DNA from: Paenibacillus sp. FSL R10-2782
GTDB taxonomy: Bacteria > Bacillota > Bacilli > Paenibacillales > Paenibacillaceae
Direction of reading: 5' to 3'
DNA length: 64,000 bases
Assembly (NCBI RefSeq): GCF_038592985.1
Contig: NZ_CP151951.1
Span: 3,649,001 to 3,713,000, forward strand
Shown here: piece by piece, positions 25,369 to 44,170 of the stretch
Layout of the letters: every line of letters begins with the position of its first letter
How positions within the stretch are numbered: the stretch's first letter is position 1
Notes under the pieces: model-generated
Told to the model about the DNA's origin: nothing
The model's database searches: none
Seen by the model: only the letters and a program-made list of their open reading frames with translations
Translations under genes and position numbers: made by a program

Positions 25369-25404
25369 TGTGACGTATATCTAGCGTGTAGACCTTCATC
25401 ACAA

Positions 25405-25463
25405 ACAAGCGCCTTGGCAGCTCGCAGATGTAAACCTGTAAGCTGCCAAGGCGCTTGATTTTA
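25405..25463 (+). terminator. Terminator after ydcF-like gene
   Basis: Perfect 17-bp arms (CAAGCGCCTTGGCAGCT and its complement) around a 20-base loop, followed by ATTTTA. It serves the plus-strand gene. Confidence 0.85.
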
Positions 25464-25540
25464 CCATGAGTCTTTCTTTCATGAGTATCGTAAGAGTTCA
25501 AAGTCCGTATTTTATCCCGACTCGCATGTCTTCCAACCCA

Positions 25541-26011
25541 CTACATATCCCCGTGCAAGAAAATTTCCGACAATTGTTCCTCCGAAATCACCTTAAAGCC
25601 TTCCTTTTTCAACAAAGCCGAGGTTACGCCGTTACCTGCTATTTTCCGGTTTTCAAATGACCCGTTATAGATGGCGGCTGATCCGCAAGACGGACTGTTT
25701 TCTTTTAAAATAATGAGCGTAGCGTTAATCTCTTTAGCTATGTTCAGAGCTTCGTATGCACCTTTAATGTACATCTCACTGACATCGTTGCCCGAGGACT
25801 CAACCACCTTGGCTGTACCGTTCAGTACATCTTCCCCCGTCCCGCCCACAATTTCAGCAGGCGGTCTCGGCGTCATAAAGCCTCCCAACAGCTCAGGACA
25901 GATGGCCACAACCTTCTTTTCCTCAACCAACTTCTGAATATGTACGTCCAAGCTATCCGTCCCGTTATACCGGACCTTCATCCCTGCCAAACACGAACTT
26001 ACCAAAATCAT
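25541..26011 (-). CDS. DUF523 domain protein
   Basis: A 156-residue cytoplasmic protein. I chose the ATG at 26011 because GAGGTGG precedes it. DUF523 has conserved cysteines and motifs: LVSSCLAGMKVRYNG, CPELLGGFMTPRPPAEI, LKENSPSCGSAAIYNG and GVTSALL. The cysteines suggest metal or cluster binding, but no function is established. A MITE copy sits 40 bp upstream of its start and may carry or disturb its promoter. Confidence 0.9.
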   Translation of the reverse strand: MILVSSCLAGMKVRYNGTDSLDVHIQKLVEEKKVVAICPELLGGFMTPRPPAEIVGGTGEDVLNGTAKVVESSGNDVSEMYIKGAYEALNIAKEINATLIILKENSPSCGSAAIYNGSFENRKIAGNGVTSALLKKEGFKVISEEQLSEIFLHGDM

Positions 26012-26050
26012 CTGCTTCCACCTCATATCATTGCTTTTCACAACTTAAGT

Positions 26051-26168
26051 GAATCAATGTCATAATACCCTCAGTAGCTTTAATAAAGAGTACATATAGA
26101 TCAAAATGGTTTGATTTGTCTATATGAAGTATACATTTCGTTGGCTTAATCATTTATGAACTGGATTC
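26051..26168. mobile_element. MITE-like element, left copy
   Basis: A 118-bp AT-rich element without coding capacity. It begins GAATCAAT and ends ATGGATTC-like (TGGATTC); the ends form imperfect terminal inverted repeats of about 16 bp. It is flanked by the 4-bp direct repeat AAGT (26047-26050 and 26169-26172). An internal stem CATATAGA/TCTATATG is present. It is about 93 percent identical by eye to the copy at 30170-30288, in opposite orientation. The remaining sequence to 26268 shows no gene. Confidence 0.8.
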
Positions 26169-26268
26169 AAGTAGTTTAAGTATAATCAAATTTTCTCATA
26201 TAGTCATCGTACGAAAAATAAAACTTCCTTCTTCCATATCAATAATGTCGCTTCTTCTACCGTATGAC

Positions 26269-26320
26269 ATAAAAAATGAAGAAAGCGAGGCCGTCCCGTA
26301 AATAGGGATAACCTCACTCG
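26269..26320 (-). terminator. Terminator after nucB
   Basis: On the minus strand GAGGTTATCCC pairs imperfectly with GGGACGGCCTC and is followed by GCTTTCTTCATTTTTT, 65 bp beyond the nucB stop. Confidence 0.6.
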
Positions 26321-26384
26321 ATTTAAGATTGCCAAAACTGTTCTTTCTGTACCAACATAATGAACGTCTAATTTCTAGACCTCA

Positions 26385-26801
26385 CTAATTCACTATAAAT
26401 TTAACCCGCGTTCCATCCGGATAATCTTCCACTTGATGACTTACCCATGATCCTGCGCCACGATTATCACTAGGGCTTATATAACGAATGTCTGCCCCTG
26501 CCCCTCCCTCTGCACACATCGCCATCGGCCACTCGTCACGGTCATATCCTTTTTTGGTCGGATATCCCTTTAAGGACTCTCTGCGATTTTCCTCGGCCCC
26601 GTCTCGGTCAATCGTACAAACCGAAGAATGCCCGGTTGCAATTGCATCCTTAATATGCGCCCCGGTTTCCGGATAGCGAGAGGTTGGGAAGTTCAAGGTA
26701 TACTCTGCTGCTGCCCTCTGCATGTTCACTACAGGTTCTGCATAAGCACTTTGCATGGATAAAATGGCAGCCAGCAAAAAAACAATAAGCCCTCTTATCA
26801 T
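26385..26801 (-). CDS. nucB: NucB-type secreted sporulation nuclease
   Basis: A 138-residue secreted DNase with a signal peptide (about residues 1-21, MQSAYA). The NucB/NucA core holds the catalytic DRDGAEEN motif ([18 protein letters not shown]), [11 protein letters not shown] and [11 protein letters not shown]; two cysteines are well placed for a disulfide. In Bacillus it degrades mother-cell DNA and disperses biofilms. Here it is divergent from sigK and shares the 206-bp region upstream of both, which fits mother-cell control. Confidence 0.94.
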
Positions 26802-26910
26802 TGCACACCTCCATATTCTGTTATTTGTCTATAGAATACGATTTGAAATGTAGAGGTGTGTTAAATAAATTACAGCCCTAAATTGTTGCAAAACAGTTTT
26901 CGGAGTACAG

Positions 26911-26940
26911 GCACGGATGGGCACCTGCCCACATACAATA
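26911..26940 (+). promoter_or_regulatory. Putative mother-cell sigma promoter of sigK
   Basis: CATACAATA at 26932-26940 fits both the sigma-K -10 (CATAnnnTA) and sigma-E -10 (CATACAnT) elements. GGCACGG at 26910-26916 is a plausible sigma-K-type -35 (AC core). A perfect inverted repeat TGGGCA-CC-TGCCCA (26919-26932) fills the spacer. The gene starts 68 bp downstream. Promoter identity is inferred. Confidence 0.5.
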
Positions 26941-27007
26941 AACAGATCACAAGCCCGGTAAGTACCGTAGGCCGGCAAGTTCGCAACTACCTCAGGAGGT
27001 GTCACCC

Positions 27008-27709
27008 GTGCCCGGACTATTTAGCGCTATCGCTCTGTTCATCAAGGAATTGACGCTACTCGTCTCTTATGTGAAAAACAACGCCTTTCCGCAGCCATTG
27101 ACTGAGAAAGAGGAAGCCCGACACCTAAAGCTGTTTGCCGAAGGCAATGCGCAATCCCGCAACACACTAATTGAGCATAATCTGCGGCTGGTGGCTCATA
27201 TTGTGAAAAAGTTTGATAACACCGGTGAAGATTTGGAGGACCTCATATCCATCGGCACCATCGGACTGATCAAAGCCATTGAAAGCTTTCAGACCGGGAA
27301 AGGCACCAAATTAGCAACGTTTGCGGCCCGGTGTATTGAAAACGAAATTTTAATGCATCTTCGCTCATTGAAAAAAACACGTAAAGACGTATCTCTCCAT
27401 GATCCTATTGGGACAGACAAAGAGGGCAACGAAATTACTTTAATTGATATCCTCGGCACCGAGGCGGACGATATTGTGGATAAGGTACAGCTCAAAATAG
27501 AGAAGAGTAAAATCTATCGCAACCTGGATATTTTGGATGAGCGTGAAAAAGAAGTGGTTATTGGTCGATTTGGCCTGGAAGCCGGAGGAGAAGAACGTAC
27601 ACAGCGGGAAATTGCCAGAGAGTTGGGGATTTCTCGTTCGTATGTATCCCGCATTGAGAAGCGTGCGTTAATGAAGCTGTACCATGAATTTTACAAGCAG
27701 AAGGGGTAA
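27008..27709 (+). CDS. sigK: RNA polymerase sporulation sigma factor SigK (pro-sigma-K), uninterrupted
   Basis: The 233-residue late mother-cell sigma factor is intact, with no skin element. It begins with the pro-sequence [20 protein letters not shown] followed by [10 protein letters not shown], where SpoIVFB cleaves. Region 2 is [33 protein letters not shown], and the region 4 helix-turn-helix is [25 protein letters not shown] chose GTG at 27008, seven bases after AGGAGGT; GTG at 26999 overlaps that site. A scrambled relic of this gene lies at 29697-29783. Confidence 0.96.
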
Positions 27710-27762
27710 TGAGCTCCGCTTCAATAATAACTATTTTGATATGTATTTTCATTTTAAACGCC

Positions 27763-27797
27763 AATAAAAGCCTGTAGTGGTTTTCTACACTACAGGC
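27763..27797 (-). terminator. Terminator after the hydrolase-tetR operon
   Basis: Perfect 10-bp stem GCCTGTAGTG/CACTACAGGC with TTTTATTGG following on the minus strand. It has no T run on the plus strand, so sigK lacks an obvious terminator of its own. Confidence 0.75.
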
Positions 27798-27875
27798 TAA
27801 AAATGCTTGATATTATTGGGTATTTTTACTTCGTCAGGACAAGCTCCTCCATTAGTTGGCTCTCTGAAATTGAAT

Positions 27876-28850
27876 TTATTTTCCTACATACTCATCTAAA
27901 AAGCGATCTACTCTTTTGAAATATTCAGTGGGGTAATGGTTGATGGCATCGATGTGCTCCGTATTTTGCGGGTACCATACTTCTGCTTTTGGGTTATCTT
28001 TTAAGGACTCGTAAATAATTTCTGTATTTTTATAACTAATTTGCTGATCTCCAGTACCATGAATGAGCATAACTGGCTTGTCTTGCATCTTTTTTACCGC
28101 ATCCATAGGAGATATGGAATCAAGATCAACCTTAAAGGCCCAATTTGCCATCCATGTCGATGTATAACTGAATGGAAACGCTGGTAAACCTGAAAAGAAG
28201 GGCAAACCCTCTCTCAGAAATAGACCAGCATTACGAAAAGGACTATCCGCAATTACGGCTTTAATGTCATCACTTTCACTTGCGGCTAGCAAAGAAGTAG
28301 CAGCACCCATTGAAAAGCCGATAACTCCAATGTTATCACCCGTATGTTCTCTGGATTTTAAATAGCTTACAGCTCCTAGCAAATCGTATTTTTCATTGAG
28401 GCCCAATGTAATCAAATCACCATCGGATTTACCTTGCGAGCTGAGGTCAAATGCCAATACATTGTAGCCCTTCGGAACGAAATGCTCTACTAACTTTGGG
28501 GTCCGCCCTTTGACTAAACGATTGCTCGTATATCCATGGACGACAATAATCGTCTTATTACTTGCTTTACCAGAAAGACCACTTGCAGGGAAGAAGGAAC
28601 CTCTAATCGTATTATCATTTTTCAAACTCTTGAACTCGACCTCTTCGTAAGGAGTTTTATTGATATTCAATTCGTAGCTGACATTAGTGTCTCTAGGATG
28701 GTGCAACAAGGTGTCTACTACTTTATAAGATATAAAAAATACAAGAGCCATCACAAGCAAAAGCACGATCCCTAGGCTCCATAAAATTTTCTTCCGTTTT
28801 TTCACACGAACGTTAAATGTCAGATCAGGTTGTAATGATGTTTGACTCAT
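27876..28850 (-). CDS. Alpha/beta hydrolase with N-terminal membrane anchor
   Basis: A 324-residue protein with one membrane helix (about residues 22-45) and an extracellular alpha/beta hydrolase fold. The nucleophile serine is in GVIGFSMGAATS, the oxyanion region in VVHGYTSNR, the acid in MLIHGTGDQQIS and the histidine in NTEHIDAI. It resembles the YqkD/FrsA-like Bacillus hydrolases. It is co-transcribed with the TetR gene (4-bp overlap), so it may respond to a compound sensed by that regulator. The substrate is unknown. Confidence 0.88.
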   Translation of the reverse strand: MSQTSLQPDLTFNVRVKKRKKILWSLGIVLLLVMALVFFISYKVVDTLLHHPRDTNVSYELNINKTPYEEVEFKSLKNDNTIRGSFFPASGLSGKASNKTIIVVHGYTSNRLVKGRTPKLVEHFVPKGYNVLAFDLSSQGKSDGDLITLGLNEKYDLLGAVSYLKSREHTGDNIGVIGFSMGAATSLLAASESDDIKAVIADSPFRNAGLFLREGLPFFSGLPAFPFSYTSTWMANWAFKVDLDSISPMDAVKKMQDKPVMLIHGTGDQQISYKNTEIIYESLKDNPKAEVWYPQNTEHIDAINHYPTEYFKRVDRFLDEYVGK

Positions 28851-29476
28851 TCAGACTCCTCCAGTTTTTCTTTAGGTTGTATGGGTGCGAACAAATAAAA
28901 GGCATGCCTCTTCAGATTTTCCCACTCGGGATGATGAATAATACTTTCTCCAAGAGTTAAGCCCACTCCATTAAAGAAAGAGATATAGGCACGAGAGATC
29001 ATTGCTGGAGAAAAGCTTTTGTTGAATTCGCCCATTAACTGTCCCTTGGCATAGACGCATTCGATCGCATCTGTCATTACCTTTGTACTTTCAAGGACCT
29101 TCTGTGTAAGTTCAGGGAATCTTATTCGTTGTCCTAAGACAGATTGAACAAGCCGCAATTCATTTGTATATAAGTAGATATGGTTGAATTGTTCTGCCAC
29201 CATGTTCTTAATCAATACGCCCGGCGTCCCCTCTTGTTGTAGACAAGCAAGCGATTTCGCCTGAATATCAGCAAGCGGCTCAAGGACAGCTGCGTAGTAT
29301 AAAGCTTCTTTGCTAGGGAAATATTGAAAAATGGTTCCAGGAGTCACCCCCACACTCTGCGCAATAATAGCCGTTGTGGTATTCGAATAGCCACTTTCTG
29401 CGAACAGGATAACAGCTTCTTCTAGGATACGTTTACGCCGCTCCAGTCTTTTTTCTTCATTGATGGGTCTTGCCAA
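28847..29476 (-). CDS. TetR/AcrR family transcriptional regulator
   Basis: The 209-residue repressor has the N-terminal TetR helix-turn-helix (ILEEAVILFAESGYSNTTTAIIAQSVGVTPGTIFQYFPSKEALYYA, about residues 15-60) and a ligand-binding C-terminal half. It is the first gene of a two-gene operon with the hydrolase. A perfect AT-rich palindrome lies 36-65 bp upstream and is the likely operator. The inducer is unknown. Confidence 0.92.
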   Translation of the reverse strand: MARPINEEKRLERRKRILEEAVILFAESGYSNTTTAIIAQSVGVTPGTIFQYFPSKEALYYAAVLEPLADIQAKSLACLQQEGTPGVLIKNMVAEQFNHIYLYTNELRLVQSVLGQRIRFPELTQKVLESTKVMTDAIECVYAKGQLMGEFNKSFSPAMISRAYISFFNGVGLTLGESIIHHPEWENLKRHAFYLFAPIQPKEKLEESE

Positions 29477-29511
29477 ATGTATTCCCCTCTCTTTAAGCTA
29501 AACTTTCGTTA

Positions 29512-29541
29512 ATTAATTAAATGATCAGTTATTTAATTAAT
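29512..29541. promoter_or_regulatory. Probable TetR operator
   Basis: Perfect 11-bp arms ATTAATTAAAT and ATTTAATTAAT separated by GATCAGTT. It lies just upstream of the tetR-hydrolase operon, where an autoregulatory operator is expected. The AT richness makes chance palindromes more likely, but 11 of 11 pairs is unusual. Confidence 0.55.
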
Positions 29542-29610
29542 AATATATCTTAAATTACGACTTATAGCAAGAGTGAATTTACTTACGAGCAGGATGAACC
29601 TCAACATATA

Positions 29611-29657
29611 AAAACAAGCCGGAGTGCTGCCCAACATGCGCCTCCGGCTTGTTTTTA
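29611..29657. terminator. Orphan bidirectional terminator
   Basis: AAAACAAGCCGGAG pairs with CTCCGGCTTGTTTT, with A and T runs on both sides. No intact gene reads into it: tetR begins 135 bp away and reads outward. It sits beside the sigK relic and may be a leftover of a deleted gene. Confidence 0.75.
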
Positions 29658-29696
29658 TCAGGTTATTTTGGATGAGTACATGTTCCGCCTTCCTTA

Positions 29697-29783
29697 ACGG
29701 TGAAGATTTGGAGGACCTCATATCCTTCGTTACCATCGGGGATTACGCGTTCGTATGTGTCTCGCATTGAAAAGCGTGCGTTT
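29697..29783 (+). pseudogene. Internally deleted sigK relic
   Basis: 29697-29740 repeats sigK bases around 27222-27265 (encoding [13 protein letters not shown]) almost exactly. 29741-29783 then repeats sigK bases around 27627-27670 (encoding [13 protein letters not shown]), joined at a shared GG-GATT and lacking about 360 bp in between. The frame reads into a stop. A 13-bp match to another part of sigK (TATTTTGGATGAG) occurs at 29664-29676. A short hairpin with T run follows at 29807-29831. The rest of 29542-30169 shows no gene. Confidence 0.8.
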
Positions 29784-29806
29784 AAGCACAAATATATGAA
29801 CTGCAT

Positions 29807-29831
29807 TAGGGTCCCAATAGGGGCCTTTTTC
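29807..29831 (+). terminator. Short terminator-like hairpin after the sigK relic
   Basis: GGGTCCC-AATA-GGGGCC followed by five T. It would end any transcript reading through the relic. Confidence 0.5.
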
Positions 29832-30169
29832 GTAATTATATCGCTTAAACTCTATCATAAAACCATGTAAACAATTGTTCCTTTTTAATGTTAGGAATAC
29901 GCGGGGGTTGCTTATATTGTATGTGTCGTCATCAACAGCATTCTAGCAATAACTGTATATACAGCCTTGCGCTCATTTGCGAATTGAGGCAATCCAGTGC
30001 TTTATCTAACCCGGGTTTACTTCCGTCCATTTGAAGCTATGTAGACGACAATCTCTACCTGTTGAAGAGTATTGGTGTGTTTTTTCTGACAGTCGCAATA
30101 TGTATTTTAGTATAAGGGAATACATTTATTGAGAGATTCATATCAATATACAATAATAATTTCAACAAT

Positions 30170-30288
30170 GAATCCATTTCATAAATGATTAAGCCAACGA
30201 AATGCATACTACATATAGACAAACTAAACCATTTTGATCTATATGTACTCTTTATTAAAGCTACTGAGGGGTATTATGATATTGATTC
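30170..30288. mobile_element. MITE-like element, right copy (inverted relative to the left copy)
   Basis: A 119-bp copy of the element at 26051-26168, in reverse orientation. It starts GAATCCATTTCATAAA and ends ATTATGATATTGATTC; 13 of the first 16 terminal bases pair with the other end. It is flanked by CAAT on both sides (30166-30169 and 30289-30292), a 4-bp target duplication different from that of the left copy. It lies 37 bp upstream of the discoidin-like gene and could supply its promoter. Confidence 0.82.
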
Positions 30289-30325
30289 CAATATTAAATA
30301 ATTTAACTAATGGGGGAAATGCAAC

Positions 30326-30835
30326 ATGACAAAATTTAGTCAGAATCCAAACGATTATTCTTTTTCAATTGATCCTGTCGTTATAGCAGAAGAAAATGTT
30401 TCAACTAATGGTGATTCCAAAAATACTTTTCCAAAAAATATTTTAGTTGATAATAATCTTTCTTGGGAAAGCAGCTTGAGCGGTAGAGGTGGAGAAATTG
30501 TATTCAAATTAGATGAAGGCAAAACGATTAATGATATCCTCTTGGCTCAGCCAACCTTTAAAGCTTTTATCCTAACGTTTTCTCTTCATGGTTCTAACGA
30601 CGGAGAAAACTGGTTTAGATTAGGTGCAGTAGAAGCAGTGCCAACTACTGCAAAAACGACTTATCAATTTAACAATGAGATTCCTTTTCAATATTATAAA
30701 ATAACTGTACTTTCATCTGGCCTGAATAATACAACAACCTATTATGGTGTACGATATATTCAGTTAAGAACCGCTTCAATCAATGGCGTTCCAGCCTACA
30801 GAAATTCCAATTTAAATCCCGCTATTGCGGAATAA
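30326..30835 (+). CDS. Small discoidin-like (F5/8 type C fold) protein, unknown function
   Basis: A 169-residue protein with no signal peptide and no membrane helix. The central part (ILVDNNLSWESSLSGRGGEIVFKLDEGKTI ... FSLHGSNDGENWFRLG ... QYYKITVLSSG) resembles a discoidin or carbohydrate-binding module 32 beta-sandwich by pattern (SxDGxxW). The likeness is weak. Base use is more AT-rich than most neighbours. The ATG follows GGGGG at good spacing. It stands alone behind a MITE copy and ends at a terminator; transfer is possible. Confidence 0.7.
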   Translation: MTKFSQNPNDYSFSIDPVVIAEENVSTNGDSKNTFPKNILVDNNLSWESSLSGRGGEIVFKLDEGKTINDILLAQPTFKAFILTFSLHGSNDGENWFRLGAVEAVPTTAKTTYQFNNEIPFQYYKITVLSSGLNNTTTYYGVRYIQLRTASINGVPAYRNSNLNPAIAE

Positions 30836-30881
30836 AAATCAATGTGAGCATACTGCATCAATTCCTATATGCACATATACA

Positions 30882-30917
30882 AAAGAGGGGCTGGCTAATG
30901 CCACCCCCTTCTTTTTA
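30882..30917. terminator. Terminator shared by convergent genes
   Basis: GGGGCTGGC-TAAT-GCCACCCC with T and A runs. It overlaps the stop of the minus-strand SLH gene and follows the plus-strand discoidin-like gene by 46 bp. Confidence 0.8.
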
Positions 30918-36777: not shown

Positions 36778-38244
36778 TCAACCGCCATAAATACTGTAAG
36801 CGAAGTGATATACAATATCTGTGTCTATAATCGAAGTTCCTCTAACCTGAGCAGCTACCCCTGAGAGATCAAAATAGTGTGTAAAACTGATTGCTCCGGA
36901 CAAGTATTCCGCAATACTTCCAGTTGAATGAGGCAGGGAAACGGTAACACTAAAGGCCCCATTCTGATCCGTATATGCTGTGCCTGTACGAGTGCGATTG
37001 CCGCTGCCTTCAGTCCAGTTCTGATTCAACCATGTCATATCAACAGGCGCATTTGCAACAGGATAATTATCAGTTGTAGTAACGACACCCTTCACAGTAA
37101 AATCACTGGTTCCAGTAACACGGTAATGACGACCGTAAGAATAGGTTGGGTAATCATTAGGGCCATTTTTAGAAGAGTCGTAACCGTTAATTACAATTTT
37201 TCCAGCCCGAAGCACCGGTTTAAGTGTTAGTGTATACAAATGGTCAGCTGAGTACTGATTGGTTGTGTATACTCGTACATAGTAGGTTCCAGTATTTAAA
37301 GAAACATTGTGATTCGTTTGCGGGAGAAGCACCATCTGGTTGCCGCTGAGAGCTCCATAAACTTCCGCTTTGTAACCGTAGCTTTCCGAGGTACTATCCA
37401 GCTTTACATTTAATGCATCATAATTGCGGCTCGCAGGGATCGTGATTTGATACCAGTCGTTATCAATGCCTGAATGGATGGAACGTGAGTTAAGGGAAGA
37501 TCCACCCGTACTAAAGGTAAAGTTATAAGCATGAAAAGCGCTCTCATCCGGCTCATATGCATCGTAGCTGGAACTTGTATCGACAGTTAGATAGAAAGGA
37601 GCATTAATGCTAGAGCCCTTCTTCGCATGAACTGCAATCGCATAAGCCTTTTCCGATCCGATAGCATTGCGCGCTCCTACGTTTTCGGGAAGTGATGCAG
37701 CCCCCTGTTCATAATTGTTAAAATAAGTACCGTAGGTAGAAGCGTCTATTGGATTGGGGTTGATGTCACCTGTCGTCATATCAAACTCGTATAAGTACAA
37801 GTCATAGTCAAGCTGTGCTGAAAATGGTCCGTCCAGCTGAGCCTGCAACAATTCGCCAGGCTGCAAATAGATCGGATATAAAAATTGTGTACCTCCCTCT
37901 TCCGTAATCGTACCGGAATACGTAGCAGAAGAAGCTGTGGCTGCCGCTGGGCTTGCTTTCAGCGAAGGAACAGTTTCTTTTTTCAATGAGGGTGTCTCTG
38001 GTGTCTTGAAGTTGAGATCTTCCTTCATGGCATATACCGAAGAAGTAATACTGTCAGGCTTGTCTGCCCGCATTAGCTGCTTAATGACGCTTTCATTTGC
38101 AGTTGTTAGCTGAACATCGGACTCCGCCTTAATCGCTTGGTCCGATACCCCATCTGTGCTTTGACTCGCATTCGCAGTCAACCCAAAAGCAAACAGGAGC
38201 ATCGCGCTTAGCATAACTGCAATAGCCTTTTTGAACCTCTTCAT
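36778..38244 (-). CDS. Secreted PPC/beta-sandwich protein, paralog A
   Basis: A 488-residue secreted protein starting at the ATG at 38244 behind GAGAGGGG. Signal peptide about 1-27 (LLFAFGLTANA). A linker rich in Lys and Ser (about 30-105) precedes a pre-peptidase C-terminal-like beta-sandwich (SGTITEEGGTQFLYPIYL to DAYEPDESAFHAYNF), then a second PPC-like unit (SIHSGIDNDWYQITIP ... YYVRVYTTNQY) and a C-terminal Ig-like domain (VKGVVTTTDNYPVANAPVDMTW). There is no peptidase domain. It is strongly similar to the next gene (paralog B), a tandem duplication. The function is unknown. Confidence 0.82.
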   Translation of the reverse strand: MKRFKKAIAVMLSAMLLFAFGLTANASQSTDGVSDQAIKAESDVQLTTANESVIKQLMRADKPDSITSSVYAMKEDLNFKTPETPSLKKETVPSLKASPAAATASSATYSGTITEEGGTQFLYPIYLQPGELLQAQLDGPFSAQLDYDLYLYEFDMTTGDINPNPIDASTYGTYFNNYEQGAASLPENVGARNAIGSEKAYAIAVHAKKGSSINAPFYLTVDTSSSYDAYEPDESAFHAYNFTFSTGGSSLNSRSIHSGIDNDWYQITIPASRNYDALNVKLDSTSESYGYKAEVYGALSGNQMVLLPQTNHNVSLNTGTYYVRVYTTNQYSADHLYTLTLKPVLRAGKIVINGYDSSKNGPNDYPTYSYGRHYRVTGTSDFTVKGVVTTTDNYPVANAPVDMTWLNQNWTEGSGNRTRTGTAYTDQNGAFSVTVSLPHSTGSIAEYLSGAISFTHYFDLSGVAAQVRGTSIIDTDIVYHFAYSIYGG

Positions 38245-38279
38245 ACTGAAATCCCCTCTCAAATGGTTTAAGGAATTCC

Positions 38280-38360
38280 CGCTATTCCCCAGATAAACCA
38301 GGGTAACTTCTAGGCTGTATGGCTCTATCATAAAACACTTCTGGTTCTAATGGAAGATAC
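38280..38360 (-). promoter_or_regulatory. Upstream block shared with paralog B
   Basis: The block upstream of paralog A repeats that upstream of paralog B: ATTCCCCAGATA, CTCTATCATAAA and TTCTGGTTCTAATGGAAGATAC are shared in order and spacing. On the coding strand TATGAT is a plausible -10. The conservation may simply reflect recent duplication. Confidence 0.45.
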
Positions 38361-38364
38361 TGTG

Positions 38365-38442
38365 CAAAAAAACATAAAGAGCCGCCTTTTTCGAAAATGG
38401 AAAGCCTCAGCAAGCCATTGCGAAAAAAAGCGACTCTTATGT
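38365..38442 (-). terminator. Terminator after paralog B
   Basis: A long stem on the minus strand: ACATAAGAGTCGC...TTTTTTCG pairs with CGAAAAAGGCGGCTCTTTATGT, followed by a run of T, 26 bp past the stop. Paralogs A and B are therefore separate transcription units. Confidence 0.8.
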
Positions 38443-38467
38443 ATTACTCTACTACGTTAAAAAATGA

Positions 38468-39940
38468 TTAATTTCTAATACTGTAAGCAAAAAGATAAAT
38501 AATATCCGTTGCACTAATCGAGGTGCCGTCGACCTGAGCCGCTACCCCTGTAAGATCATAATAGTGTGTAGAACCAATGTCACTCAAATATTCTACATTT
38601 CTTCCTGTAGATTGTGGAAGGGATAGTGTCACACTGAATCTCCCGTAATCGTTCGTATACGTAGAAGCCGTTCTGGTACGATTACCGCTGCCCTCGCTCC
38701 AGTTCTGATCCAGCCAAGCGACAGTGACAGGCGCATTAGGAACCAGTTGACCATCCGTTGTTTTAACGACACCATTCACGATCAGGTTGCTGCCTCCGTT
38801 AATACGATAATGACGACCGTATGAGTAAGTTGGATAGTCATAATAGCCATTGGAGTTAAAGCTCGTAATTTCGATTTTACCAGCCTTGAGTACCGGTTTC
38901 ATGGTTAGTGTATACAAATGGTCGGCTGAATACTGACTTGTGGTGTACACTCGCACATAGTAGGTTCCTGTATTCAGGGAAACGTTGTGATTCGTTTGCG
39001 GAAGAAGCACCATTTGGTTGCCAGTGAGCACCCCATAAACTTCCGCTTTATAGCCGTAGCTCTCCGAGGTACTATCCAGCCTTACATTTACAGCATCATA
39101 ATTACGACCTGCTGGGATCGTGATTTGATACCAATCGTTATCTATTCCGGAATGGATGGAGCGTGAGTTAATTGAAGAACCTCCGTTGTTAATTGTAAAA
39201 TTATAAGCATGAAAGGCGCTCTCATCCGGCTCATATGCATCATATTTGGAGCTTGTAGCCACAGTCAGATAGAAAAGATCATTAATACTTGACCCCTTCT
39301 TGGCATGGACTGCAATCGCATAAGCCTTTTCAGATCCAGTCGTGTTGCGGGCTCCTACATTTTCGGGAAGTGATGCAGACCCTTGCTCATAATTGTTAAA
39401 ATAAGTACCGTAGATGGAATTGTCAATGGCATTGGGATTAATGTCACCTGTCGTCATATCAAACTCATATAAGTACAAGTCATAGTCAAGCTGTGCTGAA
39501 AACGGTCCGTCTAATTGAGCCTGCAACAATTCACCGGGCTGCAAGTAGATTGGATATAAAAACTGCGTACCTCCCTCTTCCGTAATCGTACCGGAATATG
39601 TAGCGGAGGACGCTGTAGCTGTGGCATTCGCTGATACTGACTTTGGACTTGCTTTCAGCGAAGGGGTAACTTTCTTTTTCAAAACAGATTTCTGTGGCGT
39701 TTGCAAGTTGATATTTTCCGTAATGGCATACACCGAATCTGTAATGCTTGCGGGCTTGTCTGCCCGTGTTAAATCTTTAATGACGCTTTCTTTTTCAGTT
39801 GTTAGCTGAAAACTGGACTCCGCTTTAATCGCCTGTTCCGTTTTACCCTCTGTGCTTTGACTCGCGTTCGCAGTCATCCCGAAAGAAAGCAGGAGCACCG
39901 TGCTTAGCAACAGCGAAGTTGCCTTTCTGAACCTGTTCAT
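38468..39940 (-). CDS. Secreted PPC/beta-sandwich protein, paralog B
   Basis: A 490-residue secreted protein nearly collinear with paralog A: signal peptide (LLLSFGMTANA), PPC-like unit EEGGTQFLYPIYLQPGELLQ, second unit with NDWYQITIPAGRNYDAVNV, and C-terminal Ig-like domain (GVVKTTDGQLVPNAPVTVAW). The central part is almost identical between the copies, whereas the linker and C-terminus differ. That suggests gene conversion or selection on the core. The start follows GAGAGGGG. No enzyme motif was seen. Confidence 0.82.
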   Translation of the reverse strand: MNRFRKATSLLLSTVLLLSFGMTANASQSTEGKTEQAIKAESSFQLTTEKESVIKDLTRADKPASITDSVYAITENINLQTPQKSVLKKKVTPSLKASPKSVSANATATASSATYSGTITEEGGTQFLYPIYLQPGELLQAQLDGPFSAQLDYDLYLYEFDMTTGDINPNAIDNSIYGTYFNNYEQGSASLPENVGARNTTGSEKAYAIAVHAKKGSSINDLFYLTVATSSKYDAYEPDESAFHAYNFTINNGGSSINSRSIHSGIDNDWYQITIPAGRNYDAVNVRLDSTSESYGYKAEVYGVLTGNQMVLLPQTNHNVSLNTGTYYVRVYTTSQYSADHLYTLTMKPVLKAGKIEITSFNSNGYYDYPTYSYGRHYRINGGSNLIVNGVVKTTDGQLVPNAPVTVAWLDQNWSEGSGNRTRTASTYTNDYGRFSVTLSLPQSTGRNVEYLSDIGSTHYYDLTGVAAQVDGTSISATDIIYLFAYSIRN

Positions 39941-39977
39941 ACTAAAAAATCCCCTCTCGAATGTTTTACTAAATTTC

Positions 39978-40062
39978 CGCTATTCCCCAGATACATCTGG
40001 AAAACTTCTATGCTGTCTATCCTCTATCATAAAGCAATTCTGGTTCTAATGGAAGATACTTC
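39978..40062 (-). promoter_or_regulatory. Upstream block of paralog B
   Basis: Same conserved elements as upstream of paralog A (38280-38360), here with a perfect CCAGAT-AC-ATCTGG palindrome near 39987. The -10-like TATGAT is conserved. Beyond it, 40063-40305 has only a terminator-like hairpin and no gene. Confidence 0.45.
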
Positions 40063-40218: not shown

Positions 40219-40305
40219 AGTTTCAAGCTAAAAAACTTGAACACATATCTTGAGCGCACATAATGTACCTTTCGTAAAACACGTAAAAAGTTATTGTGAG
40301 CGCTG

Positions 40306-41147
40306 TGCTTTAATATCGCATTCATGTAGAGTGCGACCCAAAGGAGAGATATACAGATGAACAGACTAGCAAAGATTTCAATCCACGCACTCATATAGAG
40401 TGCGACAGTGCAAAGATATTAACTGCTACAGTCAACAGTATATTTCAATCCACGCACTCATATAGAGTGCGACGAAATAAAAGCCAAAATAGCCCTAGAC
40501 TGGGCAATTTCAATCCACGCACTCATATAGAGTGCGACAGTAATCTTATGTCCTATCTTCCTAGCTACTACATTTCAATCCACGCACTCATATAGAGTGC
40601 GACTCGAAAAACTGTGATTGCCCAAGAATCCCCCACTTCAGGATTTCAATCCACGCACTCATATAGAGTGCGACCTCTACGATCCTAGCTGTCTCTTCTG
40701 GATCTCCAGAATTTCAATCCACGCACTCATATAGAGTGCGACTCCTATGTTACCGCGAAACGTGCATCTGAAAAGCTGATTTCAATCCACGCACTCATAT
40801 AGAGTGCGACGTTGACCGGATTCATGGTCAACACCACATTTCGCAATTTCAATCCACGCACTCATATAGAGTGCGACCTCACCAGCAGCCCCCAAGGCAT
40901 CTACACTTAAACAAATTTCAATCCACGCACTCATATAGAGTGCGACAAAATACCTCAAGCAGATCGACGCAGCCAAGACAGGATTTCAATCCACGCACTC
41001 ATATAGAGTGCGACTTTTGATTAAACCCGTGACTTTAGTTTTGTGAATAATTTCAATCCACGCACTCATATAGAGTGCGACGCCATAAAATCACCCCAAT
41101 ACCCGTATATGTGGTATTTCAATCCACGCACTCATATAGAGTGCGAC
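40306..41147 (-). CRISPR. CRISPR array 1, type I-C-like repeats, 12 spacers
   Basis: Twelve identical 32-bp repeats begin at 40375, 40442, 40507, 40572, 40643, 40711, 40779, 40846, 40915, 40983, 41050 and 41116. A degenerate repeat at 40306-40337 ends the array. Spacers are 33-39 bp. In sense orientation (minus strand) the repeat starts GTCGCACTC, forms a stem with GAGTGCG and ends TGGATTGAAAT, the type I-C pattern. The degenerate repeat at the left and the leader at the right both place transcription on the minus strand. No cas gene lies in the window. Small frames in this stretch are repeat translations. Confidence 0.97.
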
Positions 41148-41330
41148 AGCGAAAATGCAGTAATTCATACCCTAACGATATCAATTCCACACATTATCGT
41201 AAAAACTGATGCCAAATAAGCTTGAATCAACTATTGACTTTTAAGGTTAAATAGCCATCCCAACACTTTTCGACAAATTTCGAGGTGCGAAGGACCCGGG
41301 ATTTTCATGTGCGCTTGGGGTTCGCACCGA
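41148..41330 (-). promoter_or_regulatory. Leader of CRISPR array 1
   Basis: The stretch flanking the newest repeat contains, at 41284-41327, a block also found beside array 2. It is a GGTGCGAA...TTCGCACC inverted repeat enclosing CCCGGGATTTTCATGTGC and CTTGGGG. Position and sharing mark it as the leader. 41331-41511 has no gene. Confidence 0.8.
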
Positions 41331-44001: not shown

Positions 44002-44170
44002 TTTTCAATTCATGCTCCTACATAAGGAGCGACATGGGTCAAAGATGCAGCTTTCATGCGTTTAGCGATTATTTCAATCCACGCTCCTACATAAGGAGCG
44101 ACTGGATGGTTTGGCGACTATGAGGTGCCGCTATGAGTATTTCAATCCACGCTCCTACATAAGGAGCGAC
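44002..44170 (-). CRISPR. CRISPR array 2, type I-C-like repeats, 2 spacers
   Basis: Three 32-bp repeats at 44002-44033 (degenerate, three changes at the distal end), 44071-44102 and 44139-44170, with spacers of 37 and 36 bp. The repeat matches array 1 outside the hairpin (ATTTCAATCC and the final GAC). Its stem is CGCTCCT/AGGAGCG instead of CGCACTC/GAGTGCG. The degenerate repeat and leader give minus-strand transcription. No cas gene is near. Confidence 0.93.

Follow-up and report, generated by a model that had tools for sequence, protein, structure and literature searches.

The stretch of DNA analyzed here (the window, 64,000 nucleotides, positions 3649001-3713000 of the 5.6-Mb single-contig genome of Paenibacillus sp. 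FSL R10-2782) carries two short, nearly identical blocks in inverted orientation on either side of a nucB-sigK-hydrolase-tetR gene group. We conclude, with a probability of about 93%, that each block is a separate insertion of a non-autonomous DNA transposon belonging to a family of miniature inverted-repeat transposable elements (MITEs) of Paenibacillus. A preliminary description of the window had read the blocks as independently inserted MITE-like elements whose inverted pair could allow inversion of the ~4-kb sporulation segment between them; the former part of that interpretation holds, whereas the latter is not supported. Both copies lie exactly where they had been placed and measure 118 bp (copy 1) and 119 bp (copy 2). 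They are ~95% identical and differ by 6 substitutions and one 1-bp indel rather than at about eight positions. The inverted arms reported for the pair comprise 102 nt and 20 nt, each 95% complementary. Both copies end in terminal inverted repeats of about 15-16 bp (GAATCAATGTCATAA / TTATGAACTGGATTC in copy 1, GAATCCATTTCATAA / TTATGATATTGATTC in copy 2), and each is flanked by its own 4-bp duplication, AAGT or CAAT, of which relatives carry a single copy at the empty site. The element is AT-rich (GC fraction 0.30). The open reading frames (ORFs) of at least 20 amino acids (aa) that overlap the copies encode 31-55 aa and every one of them crosses an element end, so the element has no transposase gene of its own. 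Short, devoid of such a gene, bounded by terminal inverted repeats and target-site duplications and present in multiple, mostly intergenic copies, the blocks have the attributes of MITEs.

A DNA search of the window's genome returned 17 places, namely 13 elements of the same family as the window copies (family 1) and 4 places that match the central 32 bases only. Twelve of the 13 are at least 107 bp long and one, of 99 bp, lacks the left end. A pattern for this core, allowing up to 3 mismatches, was found at 23 places in the genome, against 0 for the reversed pattern. Twelve of these places belong to family 1 and 11 (the 4 core-only places and 7 more) to a second family, family 2, which has the same length and plan but different ends (GAGCATTTTGCATAA...TTATGCAAAATGCTG). 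Family 2 accounts for 41 matching stretches in this genome, fragments counted, a figure that includes the core of one family-1 copy and two parts of a single shortened copy. When 37 of the genome's own copies were tested with a crude ORF caller, 34 lay clear of ORFs or overlapped them by 20 bp at most. Two elements of ~43-45 bp (L180 845-887 and G000:C1:5294488-5294531, the latter in L131) consist of scarcely more than both ends and are internal-deletion derivatives of families 1 and 2, and at L186 7524-7835 a family-1 copy is interrupted by another hairpin-forming repeat.

Family-1 matches occur in 55 of 75 genomes of the genus Paenibacillus, the window's own and same-species genomes counted, which contradicts the possibility that only the two window copies exist. 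The exact core is present in 38 of 392 genomes of the order, representing 3 of 49 genera. A search of a named collection gave 95 matching stretches, and the best 80 of these 95 are all titled Paenibacillus save one metagenome-assembled genome labelled Brevibacillus. These best 80 hold 81 core matches, 62 of them within family-1 or family-2 ends according to a simple pattern; the remaining 19, judged by eye, look like variants of families 1 and 2, including two with the left half only (L183, L214) and two cut by the locus end (L228, L245). The core pattern had 0 matches in viral contigs and family 1 had 0 in phages. On plasmids family 1 was not found, and family 2 was found in two P. polymyxa records.

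We aligned 65 copies (63 distinct), 40 of family 1 and 25 of family 2. Copies shorter than 105 bp (L013 and L093 of family 1; L113, L118, L123, L124 and L125 of family 2) and the 11 weakest family-2 stretches, for which no locus was available, were left out, and other genomes contributed one best copy each from 29 loci (of 55 genomes with a match). Both ends were found in 64 copies (12 own family-1, 28 other family-1 and 24 own family-2), all but L107. Exact 4-bp duplications flank 31 of the 64, whereas re-pairing the left and right flanks 2000 times gave 3.3 on average and never more than 11. They occur in 10 of the 12 own family-1 copies, so that the many copies with 4-bp duplications expected of a MITE are indeed there, in 9 of the 28 family-1 copies from elsewhere in the genus and in 12 of the 24 own family-2 copies. 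Some aligned rows represent a single insertion shared by several species; when each site is counted once, an exact duplication is present at 29 of 54 distinct sites (shuffled mean 2.7, maximum 10). The first base is A in 28 of these 29 duplications and the last is T in 23, which gives an approximate target of ANNT.

Seven syntenic regions were compared with the window. Both elements are present in Paenibacillus terrae PIC167 (G063), whereas neither family has a match in the compared regions of the six others (G061, G062, G028, G046, G027 and G013). In all six the sequence runs unbroken through the site of copy 1; five of them carry one AAGT there and G013 carries AAGC. The site of copy 2 is empty to the base in G061, with one CAAT; it spans 17 bases in G013 against 140 in the window (in a weak alignment), is affected by a deletion in G062, and falls in alignments that are not informative to the base in G028, G046 and G027. 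Thus, the empty sites that MITE insertion predicts exist for both copies, and the blocks are not conserved upstream of the same orthologs in all strains, as would be expected of a regulatory element. P. terrae NRRL B-30644 carries copy 2 as well, at a locus (L238) that does not reach copy 1's site. Among core sites tested, 5 of 6 in PIC167 and 4 of 21 in B-30644 lie at an occupied site of the window's genome, in a comparison made without three short-flank B-30644 sites (L201, L228, L245) and own fragments lacking a locus; the unshared sites may be separate insertions, missing regions or uncompared own fragments. A segmental duplication, or an inverted fragment of an older repeat that never transposed, could account for two copies ~95% alike, but homology does not extend past the element boundaries, the two copies carry separate 4-bp duplications, empty sites are seen, and the flanks are unrelated. 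We regard such an origin as practically out of the question.

The alignment supports a structure in which 13 pairs join the ends and 16 form the central hairpin. In total, 95.4% of cells are paired, against 83.7% after shuffling; the end cells are 97.0% paired over the 63 distinct copies, with compensating changes between the families. Double-change cells number 197 against 67 shuffled, the covariation score is 0.308 against 0.117, and sliding the structure by 1-3 columns leaves 31-43% paired. Because the structure was drawn from these same sequences, which are related to one another, the shuffle and slide controls are both biased towards it. From all 65 rows RNAalifold by itself recovered the end helix alone; from the 40 family-1 rows it recovered that helix together with the central hairpin and a small side hairpin.

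In ordinary MITEs the ends are expected to be best conserved. Here it is the middle: the two families have the same majority letter in 26 of the 30 columns of the core, in 17 of the 30 at the ends and in 11 of the 46 in the spacers. Because copies are expected to drift freely once inserted, conservation of the middle from one subfamily to the other suggests a need for it in spreading. The conservation of the central hairpin between subfamilies with differing ends and spacers thus suggests that the hairpin matters for mobility. It is conceivable, although we would not wager on it, that the hairpin is an active third part of the element, kept as the subfamilies changed their ends along with different transposases, such that this MITE lineage would be defined by its middle and not by its ends. 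The hairpin might then be bound by the transposase or a host factor, or fold in single-stranded DNA during replication, suggestions that are equally tentative. This reversed conservation, with the middle kept and the ends changed, offers a testable case for a MITE interior needed in mobility.

The element would be mobilized by a trans-acting transposase, most probably a DDE enzyme, that would recognize the terminal inverted repeats and cut at 4-bp staggered A-N-N-T targets, and insertion of the 118-bp element would leave the 4-bp duplication. The absence of a visible transposase, remarked on in the preliminary description, is borne out in 25400-30900, where the six ORFs that reach 110 aa encode a 2-thiouracil desulfurase, a NucA/NucB-type DNase, a sigma-70 factor (sigK), an alpha/beta hydrolase, a TetR protein and an F5/8 type C protein. 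We searched for an autonomous partner with end-repeat patterns of the element. No convergent pair of the size of an insertion sequence (IS) was found in G024, G026 or G061, and the window's genome gave only one weak 2.2-kb pair (297100/299302), one end of which falls inside a 674-aa ORF. Scanning the loci for convergent ends 300-4500 bp apart gave 11 pairs. Two (L166, L229) are the window pair in PIC167, two (L180, L181) are a full copy beside an ends-only derivative, L209 is on the same contig as L180, L186 is a copy with another repeat inserted and L129 encloses host genes; the other four are L201, L215, L219 and L242. A 4-kb pair at L126 likewise encloses host genes.

Three transposase families were considered as possible partners: PF13751 (IS1182-type), present in 46 of 75 genus genomes, PF01609, in 5 of 6 genomes, and PF13586, in 19 of 75 genus genomes. 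The 90 loci read for them (60 for PF13751 and PF01609 and 30 for PF13586, some of them one place listed twice, many with no clear end recovered, and further matches left unread) showed no good matching ends; three weak end pairs (L341, L359, L366) have 6 mismatches and no flank duplication. Terminator-like hairpins lie on both sides of several PF13751 element copies in G024 (at L294, the same place as L311, and at L313, L318, L322, L326 and L330), as if a whole stem-loop were duplicated on insertion.

Several points weigh against reading the blocks as transposon insertions. No transposition event was itself observed, and the IS with matching ends that the preliminary description proposed to look for was not found in a partial search covering end patterns in 4 genomes, 3 transposase families and 90 loci. 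The duplication is imperfect or absent in many copies (19 of the 28 family-1 copies from the genus and 12 of the 24 own copies of family 2 lack an exact one), a pattern that decay would give. Pairs changed on both sides number 12, only slightly more than the 10.4 after shuffling, and 31 of 500 shuffles reach 12. Finally, one site among the 65 aligned copies is occupied in six species (L080, L084, L085, L086, L090, L092), where in L086 the insertion adjoins the end of a 220-aa ORF, and four further sites are common to two genomes each, as judged on both flanks. These shared old sites argue against a purely recent burst, and the copies kept at one site in six species could be candidates for having been put to use.

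Among the alternatives to MITE insertion, an invertible switch for the nucB-sigK-hydrolase-tetR block fares least badly, yet we consider it very improbable. A 118-bp inverted pair 4 kb apart might recombine in principle, and the sigK-hydrolase-tetR part is inverted relative to its flanks in G028 (L169 4346-7326). However, the 13 kb compared in G028 contain no family-1 or family-2 match, so the inversion there arose by other means. PIC167, with both elements, is colinear with the window over ~10 kb at 98.9%, so that the block has one orientation in both genomes carrying both copies, and the element-free G061 has the same gene order. No recombinase is encoded among the six ORFs of at least 110 aa. 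There is thus no sign that the pair acts as a switch, and the tempting idea of flipping the sigK segment, unsupported by these comparisons, is removed.

A conserved regulatory or RNA element of the 2-thiouracil desulfurase and discoidin-like genes is still less probable. Each copy was described as adjoining the start of an outward-reading gene, and this is correct: copy 1 starts 9 bp upstream of the listed start of the minus-strand ORF (26041), for which a later start is possible, and copy 2 ends 37 bp upstream of the plus-strand ORF (30326). Moreover, the hairpin covaries and some other insertions persist at a shared site across several species. Against this, copy 1's site is empty beside intact orthologs in all six other species, in regions lacking both families, and the genome's own copies adjoin many different ORFs in varying orientation. 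The hairpin has 12 G-T mismatch cells against 6 of the A-C kind and the ends have 12 against 5, which is no clear strand-specific RNA signal. No Rfam 15 covariance model matched the window at its gathering score, and three weak matches at 25990-30340 miss the elements. The RNA folds of L096 (on both strands) and L082 surpassed those of shuffled sequences by a wide margin, unlike the RNA folds of the window copies in the form folded (z -0.8 to -1.7); DNA folds of the window copies gave z -0.9 to -3.2. A promoter scan gave 15 sites against 12.8 (standard deviation 3.6) in shuffles and was not used as evidence.

A palindromic element of the REP/REPIN or IS200/IS605 type, mobilized by a single-strand transposase, would likewise be mostly intergenic and have a central hairpin. 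To our knowledge such elements leave no duplication, whereas target duplications and matched terminal repeats are present here, and we give this origin as little credence as the regulatory one. RUP, BOX and Correia-type elements are small and non-autonomous too, with inverted ends or foldable interiors; RUP and Correia elements duplicate TA, whereas the Paenibacillus element, compared by description and not by sequence, duplicates 4 bp.

A review of prokaryotic MITEs (PMC10969869) describes elements that are likewise short, AT-rich and mostly intergenic, have terminal inverted and direct repeats, lack a gene of their own and can fold into stem-loops. The Paenibacillus family differs in that our partial search found no parental IS and in that its subfamilies resemble each other more in the hairpin core than at the ends. 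The main text of that review makes no mention of Paenibacillus, Bacillus or Firmicutes. The bcr repeats of the Bacillus cereus group are described as 100-400 bp long and confined to one group of bacilli, with bcr1 averaging 39 copies per strain and mobility tied to a TTTAT motif and a site-specific-recombination-like mechanism (PMC6542083). By that description, and with sequences uncompared, the present element stands apart: its duplications are 4 bp and variable, and the flanks examined vary, with no constant TTTAT motif at the element ends. A literature search, beyond whose reach most subscription papers lay, gave, among the matches listed, no paper on a Paenibacillus MITE family; the present family, notable for its conserved middle, was likewise not met there. 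Paenibacillus thus gains a widespread, countable MITE family with two subfamilies, of use as an insertion marker and as an aid to annotating intergenic gaps.

Table 1. Features of the two family-1 copies and the genes beside them, in window coordinates.
Feature	Position	Strand	Remark
AAGT target duplication of copy 1, left	26047..26050	.	Single AAGT at empty site in L167-L171, AAGC in L172
Copy 1, family-1 element, 118 bp	26051..26168	+	
Copy 1, left terminal inverted repeat	26051..26065	+	
Copy 1, central hairpin	26091..26128	+	Core pattern 26094-26125
Copy 1, right terminal inverted repeat	26154..26168	-	
AAGT target duplication of copy 1, right	26169..26172	.	
CAAT target duplication of copy 2, left	30166..30169	.	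Single CAAT at empty site in L167
Copy 2, family-1 element, 119 bp	30170..30288	-	Inverted relative to copy 1
Copy 2, terminal inverted repeat (right end of element)	30170..30184	+	
Copy 2, central hairpin	30210..30247	-	Core pattern 30213-30244
Copy 2, terminal inverted repeat (left end of element)	30274..30288	-	
CAAT target duplication of copy 2, right	30289..30292	.	
2-thiouracil desulfurase gene (previously called DUF523)	25541..26041	-	Beside copy 1, outside element
F5/8 type C (discoidin-like) gene	30326..30835	+	Beside copy 2, outside element

The NucB-like gene (window 26385-26801) has a protein match in PIC167 only, of the seven syntenic regions, and DNA matches to its first part are present in G061 and G062. 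A decayed second piece of sigK lies beside the intact gene at window 29698-29782, and also in L167, L168 and L169. In G062 (L168) the hydrolase-tetR-remnant part is absent and sigK runs straight into downstream sequence; the sigK-hydrolase-tetR segment may thus have been added beside an old sigK. Matches to sigK fall in two pieces in G019, G054, G053, G032, G079, G092, G006 and G080. In the first five of these genomes the pieces are ~23-54 kb apart on one contig, with split points that differ within the gene, resembling repeated skin-type interruptions. In P. terrae NRRL B-30644 (L238 1-765), a 3' fragment of sigK follows an ORF resembling an ISL3-type transposase.

Elsewhere in the window, two related segments ~1.7 kb apart, with stretches 76-85% alike, occupy positions 36790-40016, and CRISPR-like arrays with the repeat ATTTCAATCCACGC... 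are located at 40298-41170 and 44063-44170.

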